Assembly (NCBI GenBank): GCA_021776245.1
Contig: JAJFGF010000050.1
Coordinates: forward strand, 1 to 64,000
Direction: 5' to 3'
DNA from: Hyphococcus sp.
GTDB lineage: Bacteria > Pseudomonadota > Alphaproteobacteria > Caulobacterales > Parvularculaceae
Length of the DNA: 64,000 nt
The number at the start of each line of letters is the position of its first letter. The first letter of the stretch is position 1. The notes below the pieces were generated by a model, which saw only the letters and a list, made by a program, of their open reading frames with translations, made no database searches and had not been told where the DNA came from. This document shows positions 8,997-18,129 of the stretch, one piece after another. A program made the position numbers and the translations under genes.

Positions 8997-10181
8997 TCAG
9001 GCGCTTTTCTTGCCGCTTTTGTCTTCATTGGTGGCGGGTTTGGGCGGGTTGGCGCGGCTCGCCGTAGCTTTCTCTTGTCTCGCCGGATCATTTCGAAATA
9101 TCGCCTCGCGGTCGATTCTAAATCCGTCGAGCGCGTCTTCCTCGCACATGAAGAGGCGACGAATATTGAGGGAGGATCGTTCGCCAACATCGTCAAAGTG
9201 TTCTAAAAGCCACGCATCAGTAACAGCTCTGCCCTTCTCGAACAGCATTTCTATGAACGCATGCTCGGCGTTCATCTTTGATGACGCACCCAAGGAAGAC
9301 AAGGTCTCTTCGTCTTCGATCATATGCGCATGAACGCGCCGATACCCTGTTCCCTCAAGCCGGCCCTGATCGAGCAAGCGCGTAACAAAATCTACAGCGC
9401 GCAATTCGCGCAGGAGCGAAGCGTTAAACGTAATCTCGTTTAAGCGATTGAGTATATCGCGCGCCGATGTCGGCACGCCCGCACGCGTAAAAGGATTAAT
9501 CTGTACAATGATGACATCGTCAGCAGGAGAATGATCGAACAGCGGCCATAAAGGCGGATTGCCCATATAGCCGCCGTCCCAATAGGGTACGCCGTCGATT
9601 TCGACAGCCCGGAAGATGTGCGGCAGACAGGCGGAGGCCATAATGTGATCGGCTGTCAACTCTTTATGATTGAAGACTTGCGTACGGCCTGTCTCAACAT
9701 TCGTCGCAGAAATAAAAAGCTGAACTGCGCAGGAACGCACCCGTTCAAAGTCGATGACTTCCATAACCAAGTCGCGCAGCGGATTGAGCTTGAAAGGATT
9801 GAGATCGTATGGGCTCGCGAGCCGAGAAATCAGATCGAACATTATATAAGACGGTGAATTGTCGAGGCTCCAGCCTCCTCGCGCCACGTCGAAGACAGTC
9901 CTTCGCAGCGGGCTGGCGCGCGCCGCATCGCAAACGGCGTCCCAAAAGCCTCGAAGTGCTGCGCGTGCTTCGTCCCGACATCCTTCAGCTAATCCATCAG
10001 CCAACGCCACGGCGTTCATAGCGCCGGCGGAGGCGCCGGTAATAGCCGATATTTCGATTCTCTCATCCTCCAGCAACCGATCGAGGACACCCCAGCTGAA
10101 AGCGCCGTGCGCGCCGCCGCCCTGAAGCGCCAGATTAATCCTTTTAATTTTCATGCCCGCTTCACGTTTTGGCGCCATCAT
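8997..10181 (-). CDS. Patatin-like phospholipase with DUF3734-type C-terminus
   Basis: A 394-residue patatin. The oxyanion-hole motif GGGAHG (21-26), nucleophile motif GASAG (Ser51) and Asp in DGG (202-204) complete the Ser-Asp dyad. The region after about residue 290 matches the DUF3734 extension seen in alphaproteobacterial patatins. ATG at 10181 is chosen because AGGAGG lies 5-8 nt upstream; the frame runs open to 10439 without support. It lies 11 bp after 3-hydroxybutyrate dehydrogenase, a recurrent pairing in alphaproteobacteria, suggesting action on polyhydroxybutyrate or granule lipids. That role is inference; the enzyme class is well supported. Confidence 0.92.
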   Translation of the reverse strand: MMAPKREAGMKIKRINLALQGGGAHGAFSWGVLDRLLEDERIEISAITGASAGAMNAVALADGLAEGCRDEARAALRGFWDAVCDAARASPLRRTVFDVARGGWSLDNSPSYIMFDLISRLASPYDLNPFKLNPLRDLVMEVIDFERVRSCAVQLFISATNVETGRTQVFNHKELTADHIMASACLPHIFRAVEIDGVPYWDGGYMGNPPLWPLFDHSPADDVIIVQINPFTRAGVPTSARDILNRLNEITFNASLLRELRAVDFVTRLLDQGRLEGTGYRRVHAHMIEDEETLSSLGASSKMNAEHAFIEMLFEKGRAVTDAWLLEHFDDVGERSSLNIRRLFMCEEDALDGFRIDREAIFRNDPARQEKATASRANPPKPATNEDKSGKKSA

Positions 10182-10192
10182 ACGACTCCTCC

Positions 10193-11026
10193 TTAATGGG
10201 CGGTCCAGCCGCCATCTACTGGCAACGCCGCACCAGTAATCTGGGCGGCCGCGTCGCTGCACAGGAAGGTTGCGAGGGCGCCGAGTTGCTCTGTTGTTAC
10301 GAATTCTTTTGTCGCCTGGGCGGCGAGAAGCACGTCCCGAACAACCTCCTGTTCCGAAATGCCGCGCGCTTTCGCTGTATCTGGAATTTGCTTCTCGACA
10401 AGGGGCGTCAATACATATCCAGGGCAAATCGCGTTGCAAGTCACTCCGAATTCGGCGCCTTCAAGGCCGATCGTTTTCGTCAAACCAAGCATGCCGTGCT
10501 TGGCGGCGACGTACGCTGATTTATATGGCGATGCGACAAGGCCGTGAGCGGATGCGACATTTATGATGCGACCCCAACCGCGTTCCTTCATGCCGCCAAA
10601 GAGCTGCCGTGCTAGGTGGAATGCGCTTGACAAATTGATTGCAAGAATAGCATCCCATTTTTCCGCAGGAAATTCTTCAAGTGGCGATACGTGCTGAATG
10701 CCAGCGTTGTTCACCAAGATATCGATATCGCCAAAATTTGCAGTCGCAAGATTAATTAGGTGGGAGATATCGTCCTGTCTTGTAAGGTCCGCATCACTGT
10801 ATTCAATGGTTACATTAAAGCGCTCCGCCAATTCCATGCGGAGCTTGTCGATCTCAATGACGTCGCCAAATCCATTTATAATAACGTTGGCGCCCGCTTC
10901 AGCAAGCGCCGTCGCAATGCCCAAACCAATACCGCTTGTGGATCCCGTAACAATGGCGTTCTTCCCGACAAGACAACGAAACTCTTTGGTGGAATTCATA
11001 TTTCCCTTCCCATCCATTTTGGTCAT
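10193..11026 (-). CDS. bdhA: 3-hydroxybutyrate dehydrogenase (SDR)
   Basis: A classical short-chain dehydrogenase of 277 residues. It has the NAD-binding TGSTSGIG near the N-terminus, NNAGIQHVSPLEEFP, catalytic Ser in NVASAHGL, and YVAAKHG (Tyr-x3-Lys). NNAGIQHV..EEFP and SAYVAAKHGMLGLTK together are typical of D-3-hydroxybutyrate dehydrogenase, which interconverts 3-hydroxybutyrate and acetoacetate in ketone-body/PHB use. ATG at 11026 overlaps the MFS stop (ATGA), supporting this start; an inner ATG at 10999 would remove nine residues. Context with patatin and the nearby phasin supports a PHB role. Confidence 0.9.
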   Translation of the reverse strand: MTKMDGKGNMNSTKEFRCLVGKNAIVTGSTSGIGLGIATALAEAGANVIINGFGDVIEIDKLRMELAERFNVTIEYSDADLTRQDDISHLINLATANFGDIDILVNNAGIQHVSPLEEFPAEKWDAILAINLSSAFHLARQLFGGMKERGWGRIINVASAHGLVASPYKSAYVAAKHGMLGLTKTIGLEGAEFGVTCNAICPGYVLTPLVEKQIPDTAKARGISEQEVVRDVLLAAQATKEFVTTEQLGALATFLCSDAAAQITGAALPVDGGWTAH

Positions 11027-12294
11027 CTCAATCCGTTACCCGGGACAGGCGCGCCGCGCCGCCCTGTCAGGTAACGTCCAAGTCCCGCTGCAAACAAAAG
11101 CGCAATCGCTGTCGACGCTACGACGGCGCTCCAGCCTAATCGATTGAACAAGACGCCATTGACAATGCTGCCGGCGAGTCCGCCCAGATAATAGCTACCG
11201 AGATAAAGACCGCTCGCTGAGGTGCGATCACCAAGCGCCGCACGACCGACATAAGCGGTCGCCACCGCTTGCGCGAAAAAAAGACCGATGGCGATTAACG
11301 CAAGGCCAACAGCGACAATCCAGAGAACGCCGATTGTCAGCAATGCCAGCCCCGCTGCTGATATGCCAAGCGCGAGCCAATAGATCGGCCGGACGCCGAA
11401 CGAAGTTGCTACGACGCCGGCGAACGGCGTCGTTATCATCGAGGGCAGGAATACAAAGTAAACAAGTCCCAGCGTTGCGGCGCTGAGTGCAAAGGGAGAA
11501 GCTGCGAGCATGAAATTGACATATGTGAAAATGCCAATGAAGGCGAAGAGGATAAGGAATCCGATTGCAAAGCAAGCCGCGAGCGGCGGATTTCCAAGAT
11601 GCGACACCCAGCTCTCGCGCATTTCCCGCAGCGTGGCGGGCGCTATTCCCATTGTTGTCCGCGGCTTTGCGTCAGTGAAGCTAATAAAGGCGAGAATGGC
11701 GCCGACAAGATTCAAAGCGGCGAACACGTAGAAATTGATCGCCAAACCGGCGGCGTCAACAACCGAGGCAGCGAGCAATCGGCCTATAAAATTGCTAGCT
11801 ACGTTGCCGGTAATGTAAGCCGCCATAGCGCCGGCGGCCTGCGTCGCGGTGCACTCCTCAGCGAGATAGGCCATGGTCAGCGTGAACGCCGTCGCCATCA
11901 AAACGCCCTGCGCAACGCGGAGTAGTGCAAAACTTGTCAAGTCAGTGCTATGCGCAAGCAGCAATGTCGGTAACGATAGGAGCGCCAGACTGATCCATAC
12001 GCCAGCTCTCCTGTTGAGTTTTTTGTTAATCAGAGCAACGCACAGACCCGCAAAGGCCATGCCGAAAGTCGATGCATTTACGGCGGATCCCATCGCGCCG
12101 GGACTTACTGAATAGCGCCCCGCAAGCGTCGGCAGAATCGCCTGCGCCGCGAAAAGATCGACTAACGTCAAAAAACTGATCAGCCCGATGACGAATGCGC
12201 GTTTGAGATCGCCGCGCTCAGTATCGTCTGTCGCCGTACCGGGGCCGGTTGTGCGCTTCAACCTATGTTCATTGAGGAAGTTAGCTTCGTTCAA
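11023..12294 (-). CDS. MFS transporter, YnfM/arabinose-efflux type
   Basis: A 423-residue major facilitator protein with about 12 hydrophobic segments beginning near residue 34 (AFVIGLISFLTLVDLFAAQ). The frame must start at a non-ATG codon: TTG at 12294, with another TTG nine codons on. Family-typical blocks include FGMAFAGLCVALINKKLNRR (loop 2-3 motif, degenerate) and RVAQGVLMATAFTLTMAYLAEE. It leads the operon with bdhA and patatin, so a hydroxy acid or a related small acid is a reasonable substrate guess only. Confidence 0.85.
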   Translation of the reverse strand: MNEANFLNEHRLKRTTGPGTATDDTERGDLKRAFVIGLISFLTLVDLFAAQAILPTLAGRYSVSPGAMGSAVNASTFGMAFAGLCVALINKKLNRRAGVWISLALLSLPTLLLAHSTDLTSFALLRVAQGVLMATAFTLTMAYLAEECTATQAAGAMAAYITGNVASNFIGRLLAASVVDAAGLAINFYVFAALNLVGAILAFISFTDAKPRTTMGIAPATLREMRESWVSHLGNPPLAACFAIGFLILFAFIGIFTYVNFMLAASPFALSAATLGLVYFVFLPSMITTPFAGVVATSFGVRPIYWLALGISAAGLALLTIGVLWIVAVGLALIAIGLFFAQAVATAYVGRAALGDRTSASGLYLGSYYLGGLAGSIVNGVLFNRLGWSAVVASTAIALLFAAGLGRYLTGRRGAPVPGNGLR

Positions 12295-12439
12295 TCTATT
12301 AATCCCGCGCGAGCAATATTTCAGACATCTTCAGCGGCATACGCGGACCCGATTGTCTCAAAGGGGAGAGTGGCGGCAATTAGGCCCGCGCAGGGCGTCG
12401 GCGCGCAGGAAAACTGTCGTTGACGCGCCGGGGGGCAGG

Positions 12440-12904
12440 TTAGTCGTGCTTGACGTCGGCTGCGATCAATACAGCAGTGACCTCGCGATTATTGCGCCAC
12501 CAGTGAGAAATCCCCCCGGCCTCATTGGAAACGTCACCTGCCTGATGTTCGATCGATTCCGCGCAATCGCTGCGATACTCCGTCATGGCGCCGACAATCA
12601 CCATGATGAGCGCTGGCCGGTCCACATGACTGTGCCAGGGAACGACGCCGCCCGGCGCGACCGAAAGCTGCCGCAAACGAAGACGGCGATCTTTTAGACC
12701 TTTAATTTCCTTTTCGAGATCGACAGCAGAGAGTTCCGTATCGACAACGCCTGAGGCTTCGGTTTCGCCGCTTGTCCGCGCATCTGCGGTCTGGGCTCCT
12801 TCCGGACATTGGCCGGCGTATGCTGCAGAGGACAATGTGAATATTCCGGCTGACATCAGTGCGGCAATGGTATTGCCAGGGAGTGATTTCAAAATGGACT
12901 TCAT
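12440..12904 (-). CDS. Secreted cupin-domain protein
   Basis: A 154-residue protein. A signal peptide with an AYAG-like cleavage site ends near residue 30 (SAGIFTLSSAAYAG). The mature part has one cupin fold at about residues 78-150: PGGVVPWHSHVDRP holds two metal-ligand histidines, and GDVSNEAGGISHWWRNN contains the third. It probably binds a metal in the periplasm. Substrate unknown. It is separate from the bdhA operon and is transcribed the same way. Confidence 0.8.
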   Translation of the reverse strand: MKSILKSLPGNTIAALMSAGIFTLSSAAYAGQCPEGAQTADARTSGETEASGVVDTELSAVDLEKEIKGLKDRRLRLRQLSVAPGGVVPWHSHVDRPALIMVIVGAMTEYRSDCAESIEHQAGDVSNEAGGISHWWRNNREVTAVLIAADVKHD

Positions 12905-13625: not shown

Positions 13626-14783
13626 TTATTTGCCGCTTTGAGGCATGTCGGGCAGGCGAATCCAGATTGCCGTCATCCCATCGCGCGACCGGGCGCCGAC
13701 TGTGCCGCCATGCGCCTCGGCTAGCTCTTTTACAATAGCCAACCCGAGGCCGGCGCCGCCATCAGACTCCCTCTCCGGCGTCTTGGCGCGATAAAAGCGA
13801 TCGAATATATACGGAATATCACTGGACGGAATCTCAGAACCCATATTCTCGCAAGCCAACTCTAAGTGACGGCCTGCTTTCCGGGATATAATTTTGATTG
13901 CAGTGGAGTCTTCGGAATAACGAATGGCATTTTGGACAAGATTGCGAATGATGCGGAGTAGCTTTTCCCGATCTGCCTTCACCGTCTTCGCGTCTGCCTC
14001 GACGTTAATTTTCAAGTGAAGGTGTTTGCGATTAAATTCCGGCGCGAATATCGTTGACGCGTCCCTTACAAGCTGTTCGACATCAATCTTCTCAAACGAA
14101 ATCTTTACTTTCGATGCATCAACGATTGCCAATTGATGAAGGTCTTCGACAAGTCGTACAAGGCGCCTGATCTCTCCTTCAAGCATCGAAAAAACGTCAT
14201 CAGTGACCTCGATAACGCCATCGCGTAACCCTTCCAGGTAGCCGCGCAGGTTTGTGAGCGGCGTCAATAAATCATGAGCCAAGTTCGACACCATCTGCCG
14301 ACGGAGTGTTTCAAGACCTTCCAACTTTTCCGCCATCTTATTTTGCGCAGCCCCCAACATCCGTATTTCGCACCTCGGCGGCATGTTCGATATGTTTATC
14401 CTGGCGGAAAAATCGCCGCTAGTGATACGTTCAATCAGGGTGGTCATCTCACGTAGCGGCTTCAGAATGTTGGAAAGCAATAACGCGCTTACGGCGATCG
14501 CAAGCAGAACGGCGCCGCCGCCAACCCGGAGAAAAGCAAAACGAAGAGAATCCATAAACATCTGATGGGCAATCGTGGCCTCCACCCCGTACCGCGTCGC
14601 CAATTCGGCGCCAAAGCCTTCGGAGAGATGGTTAGAGATGATCCATATCGCAAGTATTGTGCCCATTAGCACGAATACTGTCGCATAAATGAGTTGCATG
14701 AGCAGGGGCGGCCGAAACACACGCAGTGTTTTTATTGCTAATCGCCGAAACGAGGAGACATTCGCATCATTCGGTTCCGTCAT
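13626..14783 (-). CDS. Membrane sensor histidine kinase (BaeS-like)
   Basis: A 385-residue kinase. TM1 lies at about residues 25-47, a short periplasmic loop follows, then TM2 at about 88-112, and then HAMP (LKPLREMTTLIERITSGDFSAR). The phosphoacceptor is His in NLAHDLLTP, the N box is RNLVQNAIRYS, and the G boxes are IFDRFYRA and GGAGLGLAIVKELAEAHGG. The ATG at 14783 is chosen for GGGAGGGAG 6 nt upstream; the frame continues to 14813. It overlaps the regulator gene by 17 nt. The short sensor loop and AHDLLTP box resemble BaeS-type envelope-stress kinases. Confidence 0.9.
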   Translation of the reverse strand: MTEPNDANVSSFRRLAIKTLRVFRPPLLMQLIYATVFVLMGTILAIWIISNHLSEGFGAELATRYGVEATIAHQMFMDSLRFAFLRVGGGAVLLAIAVSALLLSNILKPLREMTTLIERITSGDFSARINISNMPPRCEIRMLGAAQNKMAEKLEGLETLRRQMVSNLAHDLLTPLTNLRGYLEGLRDGVIEVTDDVFSMLEGEIRRLVRLVEDLHQLAIVDASKVKISFEKIDVEQLVRDASTIFAPEFNRKHLHLKINVEADAKTVKADREKLLRIIRNLVQNAIRYSEDSTAIKIISRKAGRHLELACENMGSEIPSSDIPYIFDRFYRAKTPERESDGGAGLGLAIVKELAEAHGGTVGARSRDGMTAIWIRLPDMPQSGK

Positions 14784-15510
14784 TAATAACTCCCTCCCTT
14801 TTTCTGACGCCATCGCGAAACTTGTATCCGATGCCGCGCACGGTCAGCACAAACTGCGGCGAAGAGGGGTCAGCCTCAACCTTCCGACGCAAGTTCCCAA
14901 CATGAACGTCGACAATGCGATCGACGACCTCTGCGCCGTCGTCATGCAATTGATCAAGCAAATCATTACGGCTGAAGACGCGTCCGGGTGACGACATTAG
15001 CGCATAAAGTATTCGAAACTCCGAAAGTGTCAGGGCTACGGATATCCCATCTTTCGTAACTTCCGCTCGTTCTGCTGAAACTGTGAGTCCGTCGCACTCT
15101 AGTTCCATTGCTCCGAAGATTCGCGTTCCGTCAGATGAGCGTCTCAAGACAGCCTTCACACGCTCCACGACTTCTCGAGGGCTAAATGGCTTCACGATGT
15201 AATCGTCTGCCCCCATGCGCAGGCCCGCAATTTTGTCCGCTTCCTCGATTTGCGCGGTCAGAATAATGATTGGCACACTGGACGTTTGGCGAACCTGGCG
15301 GCAGAAATCCCATCCGTCCATTGTCGGCAATCGAATGTCGAGTATAACCAGCGCGGGTTTAGATTTCTTGAGCTCATCAAACCCCTTCCGTCCGTCGCAA
15401 TGACTTATGACTTCAAACCCGTCGCGTTCGAGATAGGCGCGCAACAGAGCTGCGACATTGTTGTCGTCTTCGACGATGAGAATCGTATCCAACTTGCCGG
15501 AAGCACTCAT
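14767..15510 (-). CDS. OmpR-family response regulator (BaeR-like)
   Basis: A 247-residue regulator: receiver domain at 9-120 with acidic pocket (VEDDN), phospho-Asp in LVILDIRLPTMDGW and Lys in DYIVKPFSPREVVERV, then a winged-helix output domain (residues 150-235) with LTLSEFRILYALMSSPGRVFSR in pieces and VDVHVGNLRRKVE. It is the first gene of the two-component operon and partners the kinase downstream. It is divergent from the Rieske/ferric-reductase-like operon, a plausible target. Confidence 0.93.
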   Translation of the reverse strand: MSASGKLDTILIVEDDNNVAALLRAYLERDGFEVISHCDGRKGFDELKKSKPALVILDIRLPTMDGWDFCRQVRQTSSVPIIILTAQIEEADKIAGLRMGADDYIVKPFSPREVVERVKAVLRRSSDGTRIFGAMELECDGLTVSAERAEVTKDGISVALTLSEFRILYALMSSPGRVFSRNDLLDQLHDDGAEVVDRIVDVHVGNLRRKVEADPSSPQFVLTVRGIGYKFRDGVRKREGVINDGTE

Positions 15511-15873: not shown

Positions 15874-16101
15874 GTGGAATCGCTGATCGAACAGTTTGTT
15901 TTTGCGCTGGCGGTCTATATTGCGATTGGGATTGTTGTCGGTCTTGTTTTCCTCGCATTTTTCATATCACGGCTCGACGAAGCCGCCTCTGGCGCAAGCC
16001 TGTTTTTTAGACCAATGATATTTCTTGGTTGTGTGGCGATCTGGCCGTTTGTCGTGGCGCGCATATTGAGCCGCGGCAAGATCAATGAGCAGGAGGAATA
16101 G
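15874..16101 (+). CDS. Small two-helix membrane protein of redox operon
   Basis: A GTG start at 15874 (purine-rich RBS upstream) gives 75 residues; the frame is open further upstream without a good start. Two hydrophobic helices at about residues 8-31 (ALAVYIAIGIVVGLVFLAFF) and 45-64 (FRPMIFLGCVAIWPFVVARI) end in a basic-acidic tail. It is followed after 4 bp by another tiny membrane protein and then the Rieske fusion, so probably a subunit or assembly factor. Family unknown. Confidence 0.65.
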   Translation: MESLIEQFVFALAVYIAIGIVVGLVFLAFFISRLDEAASGASLFFRPMIFLGCVAIWPFVVARILSRGKINEQEE

Positions 16102-16105
16102 ACCT

Positions 16106-16237
16106 TTGAAACGTCCTCACCGACGCGCTCATTTCCTGATCTGGCTGCTACTGACACCGTTGATCGTCATTGCAACAATTATCCGTCTTATATCAACGCC
16201 CGCCAGAACCAGTGACGAACCTCGACGCGGTTCCTGA
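16106..16237 (+). CDS. 43-aa single-helix membrane peptide
   Basis: TTG at 16106, preceded by AGGAGG about 8 nt before it, opens a 43-residue frame: a basic head (KRPHRRAH), one hydrophobic helix (FLIWLLLTPLIVIATIIRLI) and a polar tail ending DEPRRGS. The basic head predicts the N-terminus in the cytoplasm. It fits tightly between the 75-aa gene and the Rieske fusion gene. It is likely a genuine small subunit; no family is recognised. Confidence 0.6.
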   Translation: MKRPHRRAHFLIWLLLTPLIVIATIIRLISTPARTSDEPRRGS

Positions 16238-16267
16238 CAACGCGGCGAACTGAAAGCACGCTCCGCA

Positions 16268-17335
16268 ATGGGACATAAATATCAAGCGGTCCAGTGGAAT
16301 AGGACAAAGATCATATACGATATCGTGCTGTTGCTGGCCGTCTTGTTGTTCGTCGGGATATTCATGGCGGTTGGCGCCCGCGTCTATCCAAGCGGCCATA
16401 CCGCTCATCCGGTAATCCTGCTAATTCGCGCTTTTGGCGTAGTTGCTTTTGCTCTCTTGACGCTAACGCTAATGATCGGACCGTTGGCGCGCTTGACGCC
16501 GCGTTTCCGGCCGTTTCTCTATAACCGTCGTCATCTCGGCGTGCTGGTTTTTTTGCTCGCGGCAATCCATTTTGCGCTGACGCTGGTCTGGTATCACGGC
16601 GGGGGACCACTCAATCCATTCGTCTCGCTGTTCGTCAGCAATCCACTTTATGATTCAATACCAGGGTTTCCATTCGAGTCGCTGGGATTTGTCGCGTTCC
16701 TGGTTCTCCTTATGATGGCATCAACCAGCCACGATTTCTGGCTGAATAATCTGACGGCGCCAGTGTGGAAAGCGCTGCACATGCTTGTCTATCCAGCCTA
16801 TGGGCTGCTTGTCCTGCATATCGTGCTGGGCGCGTTGCTAACTGAAAAATCGATTGTCTATCCAATCATGACCGGGACATCGTTTCTCGCTGTTGCCTCG
16901 CTTCACCTGGGCGCAGGTATGCGCGAGTGGGTTGCGGACAACGGCATGAAATCGCTCCGTGCGAAAGGGTGGGTCGATATTTGTGCGCCGATGGATATTT
17001 CGGACAACCGCGCTGTCATCGCACCCCTGCCAAAAGGCGACCGCGTCGCAGTATTTCGTAATGGCGACAAAATTTTCGCGGTCACGAATGCCTGCCGACA
17101 CCAAAACGGGCCGTTAGGCGAAGGCCGGATTATTGACGGCTGCATCACTTGTCCGTGGCATGGCTGGCAATATCGGCCGGAAGACGGCGTCTCGCCTCCG
17201 CCCTACACCGAAAAAATCGCCACTTACAATGTCAGGATCGAAGCGGGGCGCGTTCTTCTTGATCCCAATCCGAATGCGCCGGGTACGCGCGTTGTGCCAG
17301 CCCGCATAACGGAGCATCAGGAGCAAATGCCATGA
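16268..17335 (+). CDS. Ferric-reductase-like membrane domain fused to Rieske domain
   Basis: A 355-residue protein. The N-terminal 220 residues have six or seven hydrophobic helices with the MsrQ/FRE-type signature YNRRHLGVLVFLLAAIH and a second histidine set, KALHMLVYPAYGLLVLH, which would ligate b-type haem. Residues 235-340 form a Rieske domain with CRHQNGPLG and CPWHGW (C-x-H...C-x2-H) ligating a 2Fe-2S cluster. The fusion should pass electrons between a [2Fe-2S] centre and membrane haem. It overlaps the next gene by 4 nt. Electron donor and acceptor are unknown. Confidence 0.88.
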   Translation: MGHKYQAVQWNRTKIIYDIVLLLAVLLFVGIFMAVGARVYPSGHTAHPVILLIRAFGVVAFALLTLTLMIGPLARLTPRFRPFLYNRRHLGVLVFLLAAIHFALTLVWYHGGGPLNPFVSLFVSNPLYDSIPGFPFESLGFVAFLVLLMMASTSHDFWLNNLTAPVWKALHMLVYPAYGLLVLHIVLGALLTEKSIVYPIMTGTSFLAVASLHLGAGMREWVADNGMKSLRAKGWVDICAPMDISDNRAVIAPLPKGDRVAVFRNGDKIFAVTNACRHQNGPLGEGRIIDGCITCPWHGWQYRPEDGVSPPPYTEKIATYNVRIEAGRVLLDPNPNAPGTRVVPARITEHQEQMP

Positions 17336-18129
17336 GTCTTTCAAAAGGCGTGATTGATCCCTCCTCCGACAACCCACATGAAATGTTCGTCGGTTACCTG
17401 CCGACGCCCACAGTGGATCGCCGGTTTCTTCTTGCCGCCTTGCCGCTGGGCGTCGCCGCGCTTACCGAAGCGAGCTGGCTTGTTGCAAGCAAACTGCAAG
17501 ATCCCGGCGCTGGCGAATGGCGCACAGGCGAAATCCATCAAATTACCGGCGGACTGGTCACACATCCCTATCCGATGATCCGCACGCCAGCGTTCGATGC
17601 GCCCTACGGCGTTCGCACCGCATTGCTCGTCGCCACAGGAAAATGCAATTCGTCGCTCTCCGTGGGTAATGACAAATCAAGACCCATGACTGCGTCAGGA
17701 GTCCTCATCCAGCGGAAAGACAGGCAAATGCTGGAGGTTCCGCCATTTTCTGAAGATTGGCTGACGCCAGCAAATGTCGTGCTGCCTAGGGAAGTGACAA
17801 ACCCGAGTGAGGAAAGGTTGGGCGCGCACAAGCTCGCCGGGCAAATCATGGATTCAAAGTGCTTCTTCGGCGTCATGCGTCCCGGTCGCGGCAAGACGCA
17901 CAAAGCCTGCGCCAGTCTGTGTATCCGCGGCGGGATCCCTCCTAGCTTTTGGGCGCGGGACCGCGCTGGGGGCGAACGCGTGCTATTGTTGACGGACGAA
18001 TTTGGAGGTCCCGTACCGAAGGAGATTCTCCCTTACGTCGCCGATCCGGTCGAGGCCGAAGGCGAGATCGTCCGAATTGGCGATTTGCTTGAATTTCGCG
18101 TTGCCATGAATTCAATCCAGCGCCTTTGA
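17332..18129 (+). CDS. Membrane-anchored Cys-motif protein of Rieske operon
   Basis: A 265-residue protein overlapping the Rieske fusion gene (ATGA). After a 28-residue head, DRRFLLAALPLGVAALTEASW is a single hydrophobic helix; the bulk should be outside the membrane. Near residue 175 the motif KCFFGVMRPGRGKTHKAC continues ASLCIRGG with three cysteines, a pattern that looks conserved and could hold a metal or be redox-active. Family function not known to me. Strict coupling suggests it is the substrate-side partner of the haem/Rieske protein. Confidence 0.7.
   Translation: MSLSKGVIDPSSDNPHEMFVGYLPTPTVDRRFLLAALPLGVAALTEASWLVASKLQDPGAGEWRTGEIHQITGGLVTHPYPMIRTPAFDAPYGVRTALLVATGKCNSSLSVGNDKSRPMTASGVLIQRKDRQMLEVPPFSEDWLTPANVVLPREVTNPSEERLGAHKLAGQIMDSKCFFGVMRPGRGKTHKACASLCIRGGIPPSFWARDRAGGERVLLLTDEFGGPVPKEILPYVADPVEAEGEIVRIGDLLEFRVAMNSIQRL

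Follow-up and report, generated by a model that had tools for sequence, protein, structure and literature searches.

What do four tightly packed genes, at positions 15874-18129 of a 64,000-nucleotide stretch of DNA (hereafter the window), do together, and in which direction would electrons move through their products? A preliminary description had read the genes as coupled. All four open reading frames (ORFs) are present, and the intergenic gaps are +4 bp (p75/p43), +30 bp (p43/fusion) and -4 bp (fusion/p265), the last being a 4 bp overlap between the fusion and p265 genes.

The gene cluster and its membrane fusion

The features considered in this study are as follows.

8997-12904, minus strand: block of patatin, 3-hydroxybutyrate dehydrogenase, MFS and cupin genes (patatin and cupin named by eye)
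13626-15510, minus strand: divergent histidine kinase and response regulator, a neighbor only and not a conserved part
15874-16101, plus strand: p75, 75 aa, GTG start, the first gene of the module (ORF list)
16106-16237, plus strand: p43, 43 aa, TTG start (ORF list)
16268-17335, plus strand: FRD-Rieske fusion, 355 aa, ATG start (ORF list and Pfam)
16433-16810, plus strand: Ferric_reduct (PF01794) domain of the fusion (Pfam)
16970-17227, plus strand: Rieske domain of the fusion, dioxygenase-ferredoxin type (Pfam and Foldseek)
17332-18129, plus strand: p265, 265 aa, ATG start (ORF list)
17410-17493, plus strand: membrane helix of p265, residues 27-54, with DRRF at its start (AF2 model and residue counts)
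17851-17940, plus strand: Cys3-His site of p265, D174 K176 C177 ... H190 .. C193 ... C197, G201, P203 (alignment)

When read by eye, p75 probably has two transmembrane (TM) helices, and p43, which starts with (L)KRPHRR, appears to be a single-TM protein whose N-terminus is probably cytosolic, as judged from the N-terminal charge in four family members. p43 had only a sub-threshold Pfam match, and p75 matched no Pfam or NCBIfam family.

As had been described before, the 355-aa protein carries a heme domain fused to a C-terminal Rieske domain. Ferric_reduct (PF01794; E 4.4e-15, 56.3 bits against a cut-off of 28) and Rieske (PF00355; E 4.6e-15, 55.7 bits against a cut-off of 20.3) both scored above their cut-offs, and the former match places the protein in the FRD superfamily. 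In an alignment of 57 of the 72 full-length fusions plus the window protein, the heme histidines H89, H101, H171 and H184 were invariant (58/58), with TM3 and TM5 contributing two each, which is the four-His pattern of NOX-like FRD proteins; the Rieske ligands C276, H278, C295 and H298 (i.e., CxH...CxxH) were invariant in the same 58 of 58 fusions. The fusion is predicted to contain a six-TM di-heme domain with an inner heme at H89/H171 and an outer heme at H101/H184, and its ligands suggest that hemes and a 2Fe-2S cluster are bound. The AF2 model of the fusion has a pLDDT of 89.5.

Hydropathy analysis of 30 aligned fusions yielded six helices, and the mean K+R content was 2.6, 4.6, 1.3 and 3.3 for loops 0, 2, 4 and 6, and 1.3, 0.5 and 0.8 for loops 1, 3 and 5. 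Because of the six helices and this positive-inside charge bias, an N-in/C-in topology with a cytosolic Rieske domain is predicted, which puts p265 on the predicted far side of the membrane from the Rieske domain. The path drawn in the preliminary description, from heme to 2Fe-2S to the anchored Cys protein, does not agree with these charges, and the order that we propose would reverse its order of heme and Rieske domain.

The Rieske domain of the fusion matches soluble dioxygenase ferredoxins by sequence, and in Foldseek it resembled carbazole dioxygenase ferredoxin, with target-normalized TM of 0.81-0.89 for the top 12 matches. Extra disulfide cysteines are a feature of the Rieske subunits of bc1/b6f complexes. 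The ligand loops of the window protein are aligned as CRHQNG and CPWHG without an extra Cys, and assignment of the domain as a bc1/b6f Rieske subunit was rejected on these missing cysteines and on the charges that place the domain inside. Pfam reported neither an FAD/NADPH reductase domain nor an FMN-binding domain in the fusion, the C-terminus of which is the Rieske domain. The Ferric_reduct matches in the window genome are two fusions only (E up to 1e-3), and thus no MsrQ was found in this genome.

The anchored protein p265 and its short relatives

No known role emerged for the 265-aa family: p265 matched no Pfam or NCBIfam family up to E 1, and no open-licence PMC paper was found to describe the gene set. 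PDB sequence searches with p265 and with a p265 profile gave chance matches only. The AF2 model of p265 (pLDDT 86.7) has one membrane helix (residues 27-54) and two beta-rich domains, and OB-fold proteins were its top Foldseek matches, weakly (best E 3.8e-4; TM 0.19 on the query). On this model, p265 is predicted to be an N-in anchor followed by two OB-like barrels outside the cytoplasm. An RR followed by an uncharged stretch was found near the N-terminus in 71 of 76 aligned rows and was absent in the other 5; this RR motif may point to Tat export of p265 in most members.

The three-Cys motif noticed earlier in this anchored protein was located at residues 176-197 (KCFFGVMRPGRGKTHKACASLC). Residues C177, H190, C193 and C197 were found in 76/76 rows of the p265 alignment, which left out five incomplete rows and two Rhizobium rows, with an invariance that was partly built in by motif-pattern sampling. 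Loci that had been identified by searching with the whole protein or a profile carried the same four ligands. Among these, the two Rhizobium rows were taken directly from their coordinates, independently of the motif, and the other frames were extracted with a motif-demanding expression, which matched 8/8 short loci and 7/8 long loci; in the eighth long locus (L116), all four ligands are kept and DAQC replaces DSKC. The Cys3-His site of p265 is likely a redox or metal centre, presumably of metal or thiol nature.

The profile search also turned up short proteins with the C-terminal domain of p265 alone, eight of which (at L127-L129 and L131-L135) have the four ligands. They are ~150 aa long and probably exported. 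A SCO1/SenC gene lies within the same 3.3-kb locus in six of the eight, one of the eight loci has a separate Ferric_reduct gene, and several also encode a second unannotated Cys-bearing protein. The SCO1/SenC context is consistent with a metal or thiol site on the far side and does not reveal a function. A plasmid search with one short relative gave no match.

Recurrence of the module and its Rieske-fused neighbors

Among 149 genomes, the window genome included, p265 (E up to 1e-3) and the fusion (E up to 1e-40) were each found in 46, and the two lists name exactly the same genomes. When 398 genomes spread over the phylum were sampled, seven, again counting the window genome, had the fusion, and those same seven had full-length p265; three further genomes had short p265 relatives only. 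These co-occurrence counts take genomes as independent and are uncorrected for shared ancestry. The linkage that had been seen in one stretch of DNA was also found elsewhere: when the window proteins were used in tblastn (E up to 1e-3), the fusion and p265 were adjacent in 30 of 31 loci, and the sole exception is cut by its own contig end. Relatives of p75 were found in at least 24, relatives of p43 in at least 20 and the whole four-gene set in at least 17 of the 31 loci, counts that are lower bounds because small proteins diverge fast. Given the identical genome sets and the adjacency in 30/31 loci, chance clustering was ruled out. The four-gene module is genuine and recurs in other bacteria.

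Two peptide patterns derived from the Cys motif were used to collect loci, and the named ones are the best 80 of 104. These best 80 come from Marinicaulis, other Parvularculaceae, Hyphomonadaceae, Maricaulis, Henriciella, Asticcacaulis and others, and also from some metagenome bins labeled beta- or gammaproteobacterial. A p265 relative is also found on five Rhizobium plasmids; on the two examined, it is annotated as "hypothetical protein" and lies next to two small genes and to a gene annotated as "Rieske 2Fe-2S domain-containing protein."

The divergent two-component system of the preliminary description is present, 363 bp from the module, but it does not belong to the conserved unit: of 65 loci, only one, that of the window itself, had relatives of it, and its candidacy as a conserved regulator was rejected. 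L043 and L090 had only generic kinases at 26-28% identity, and the regulatory pairs of L144 and L147 are other, DctB/DctD-like ones (by eye). The term BaeSR-like proved to be loose, with scores of 192.5 bits against a cut-off of 603 for BaeS and 209.5 against 380 for BaeR, and slightly higher scores for other models.

Frequent neighbors at other loci, which lay outside the view of the preliminary description, are two enzymes that each carry an N-terminal Rieske domain, i.e., a TPP enzyme (TPP-Rieske) and a glutamate-synthase-like protein (GltS-Rieske). Both are predicted to be cytosolic. Their sequences indicate that TPP-Rieske is of the pyruvate oxidase/acetolactate synthase kind (its best match was pyruvate oxidase, at 367.5 bits against a cut-off of 742) and that GltS-Rieske is related to the FMN domain of glutamate synthase. 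The GltS-like part retains the three cysteines that correspond in position to the 3Fe-4S ligands of GltS.

The window genome has a second copy of the module, on contig C27, with 62% identity in p265 and 73% in the fusion. There, the module is downstream of a relative of GltS-Rieske, a relative of TPP-Rieske is divergent and a Na+/H+ exchanger relative is downstream of the module; the enzyme domains were shown on L035 and L033, and the C27 genes were assigned as their relatives. Neither enzyme is near the window locus, which is a second, stand-alone copy of the module. In the p265 tree, the window copy groups as sister of a locus that has both enzymes (support 98/96), and its end branch is long (0.42 versus 0.11); it thus looks detached and faster-evolving. 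In a neighbor-block search of 94 partly overlapping loci, the patatin/3-hydroxybutyrate dehydrogenase/MFS/cupin block was also found beside the distant stand-alone copies L060, L077 and L084. The MFS gene of the window matches MFS_1, and the dehydrogenase matches PHB_DH (TIGR01963) at 367.7 bits against a cut-off of 307.05.

For 65 loci, the window among them, at least 4 kb of upstream sequence was present. A GltS-Rieske relative was found in 33 of these loci, a TPP-Rieske relative in 31 (33 matches minus two Rhizobium TPP enzymes that have no Rieske domain) and at least one of the two in 38; relatives were called by blastp to one reference each, over at least 60% of the reference length, and their Rieske domains were Pfam-confirmed in L035 only. 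Besides the window genome's own, the phylum sample contained six clusters, four of which (L144, L146, L147 and L148) had both enzymes and two of which (L145 and L149) had neither in 20 kb.

At the level of genomes, 27 of the 30 with a GltS-Rieske relative have the module (Fisher p 3e-14, uncorrected for ancestry). These 30 were chosen by E below 1e-100, with the Rieske part not confirmed genome by genome, since ordinary glutamate synthases also match, which brings the count at E up to 1e-30 to 138 of 149. Similarly, a TPP-Rieske relative (E up to 1e-120) occurs in 27 genomes, and 25 of these contain the module. Both enzymes were lacking at those cut-offs in 16 of the 46 module genomes, some of which are incomplete. 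Because these 16 genomes have neither, the membrane module appears to be the core and the enzymes its frequent clients; because the window locus also has none nearby, the two enzymes cannot be the only donors.

Several minor features accompany these clusters. An extra membrane protein of 85-96 aa is encoded between p265 and TPP-Rieske at L146:8778-9068 (where it had no Pfam match), L147:8116-8397 and L144:10113-10370. By eye, TRAP-type transporter genes lie near the full clusters L144, L146 and L147, and these neighbors, together with the DctB/DctD-like genes of L144 and L147, may point to an organic acid as a substrate.

Proposed electron export and its alternatives

We propose, with a probability of roughly 0.5, that the products of the four genes export electrons across the membrane. 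Electrons would enter at the fusion's Rieske domain, which is predicted to be cytosolic and is of the soluble-ferredoxin type; in the larger clusters, TPP-Rieske and GltS-Rieske, each with its own Rieske domain, would be soluble donors. An electron would then pass from the inner heme b (H89/H171) to the outer heme b (H101/H184) and exit on the far side to p265, whose Cys3-His site would receive it as a redox or metal centre. p75 and p43 would be small accessory subunits. More tentatively, the Rieske domain may be a common plug, through which thiamine and FMN enzymes dock on the Rieske socket of this wire and so reach the Cys3-His OB-barrel protein; as a joint and equally tentative part of this idea, the p265 family may carry a metal or a 2Fe-2S cluster, and some lineages, that of the window among them, may reuse the module with other partners.

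The proposed wire resembles SpNOX, in which the inner heme is bound by H69/H129 and the outer by H82/H142 (PMC11031084): both have six TM helices, in which two bis-His heme sites lie on the same helices and are spaced almost alike, and both have an electron-entry domain at a cytosolic C-terminus, which for the fusion is a prediction. In contrast to SpNOX, the entry domain of the fusion is a Rieske 2Fe-2S domain rather than an FAD/NADPH reductase, and the fusion has a dedicated far-side partner. The Rieske domain would thus stand where NOX-type wires have their flavoprotein entry domain. An FRD-Rieske architecture (model M4) is already on record (Zhang et al., 2013; PMC3591440), where it is also listed with FMN, whereas the window fusion has no FMN-binding match; in the available part of that paper, no partner, operon, topology or function was found for it. 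Flavinylation-associated MsrQ-like systems (PMC8238504; PMC11334425), as far as their available texts describe them, likewise use a PF01794 wire to extracytosolic proteins and differ from the window fusion, which lacks an FMN-binding domain. The word Rieske has 0 occurrences in the main texts of these two surveys, which therefore offer no precedent to lean on. In the open-licence PMC literature, neither the gene set nor the two Rieske-fused enzymes were found described, in line with the earlier statement that no characterised system has this set. FRD-Rieske proteins as a kind are thus known, while that literature yielded no account of the partner family, of the operon or of its linkage to the enzymes.

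A different use of the same wire would be metal handling, with Cu(II) or Fe(III) reduced on the outer side and p265 acting as a chaperone or receiver for the metal. Both ferric and cupric reductases are counted among the FRD proteins (PMC3591440), and the C-terminal domain of p265 is shared with the short proteins near SCO1/SenC (6/8). The SCO link, however, belongs to the loci of the short relatives and not to those of p265, and no metal transporter was recognized by eye among the gene clusters common to at least four loci, a lack that is qualified by an RND-type efflux pump gene (by eye) flanking the module in L055, L057, L080, L094 and L110. We regard metal handling as unlikely.

Repair of the MsrPQ (YedYZ) type, with p265 in place of MsrP as the periplasmic reductase of oxidized proteins, is a still weaker candidate. 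The logic of an FRD membrane heme protein serving an exported far-side partner is that of MsrQ and MsrP (PMC11031084), and the fusion matches the MsrQ model (NF003831) at 4.3e-11. That match, however, scores 42.7 bits against a cut-off of 130. In most short forms, including YedZ, the cytoplasm-proximal heme His are reported to be replaced by Arg (TM3) and Gln (TM5), with one His of the YedZ-type inner pair said to remain in some listings (PMC3591440), whereas H89 and H171 are invariant in the fusions, which keep all four heme His. Membership in MsrQ was rejected on these grounds, and the label MsrQ-like, given earlier, does not hold in its narrow sense. The window protein further differs in its fused Rieske domain, and its partner is a two-barrel Cys3-His protein rather than a molybdoenzyme, with no match in Pfam or NCBIfam; the only Oxidored_molyb match of the genome is on another contig, in a 429-aa frame.

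We give little credence to a miniature bc1, in which the anchored Cys protein would receive electrons from quinol or the cytosol via heme b and an outward-facing Rieske domain. The arrangement does recall bc1 logic in that a Rieske domain comes after a membrane heme protein, and there are membrane proteins whose Rieske domains are exported by Tat (PMC5449189). However, the six helices and strong positive-inside bias put the C-terminus of the fusion inside, its Rieske domain belongs with the soluble dioxygenase ferredoxins and no RR precedes the last helix of the window fusion.

Rieske-type ferredoxins usually supply electrons to enzymes, and a GltS-like enzyme could presumably run reductively, both of which would suit an inward flow from quinol or p265 through the hemes to the cytosolic Rieske domain and on to the GltS-like and TPP enzymes; this direction is nevertheless very improbable, as electrons moving from outside to inside would work against the membrane potential and the 16 module genomes without the enzymes would have no such acceptors.

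If electron export holds, this module would be a second prokaryotic FRD system with a definable job and defined partners, given that, according to a 2024 paper (PMC11031084), no prokaryotic FRD protein other than MsrQ has had its physiological function clearly identified. The anchored p265 family, which has no entry in Pfam or NCBIfam, is now linked to two Rieske-fused enzymes.

It should be noted that relatives of TPP-Rieske and GltS-Rieske travel together (L114:4001-7867; L150:3618-8677; L151) and share three haloarchaeal plasmids, for which no p265 match was reported; a TPP-Rieske relative is also found on a Mycobacteroides plasmid. Three copies of the fusion have one in-frame stop in the match (G021:C9:90129-91148, G053:C155:39039-40040 and G059:C271:1-960) and are possibly decaying copies.
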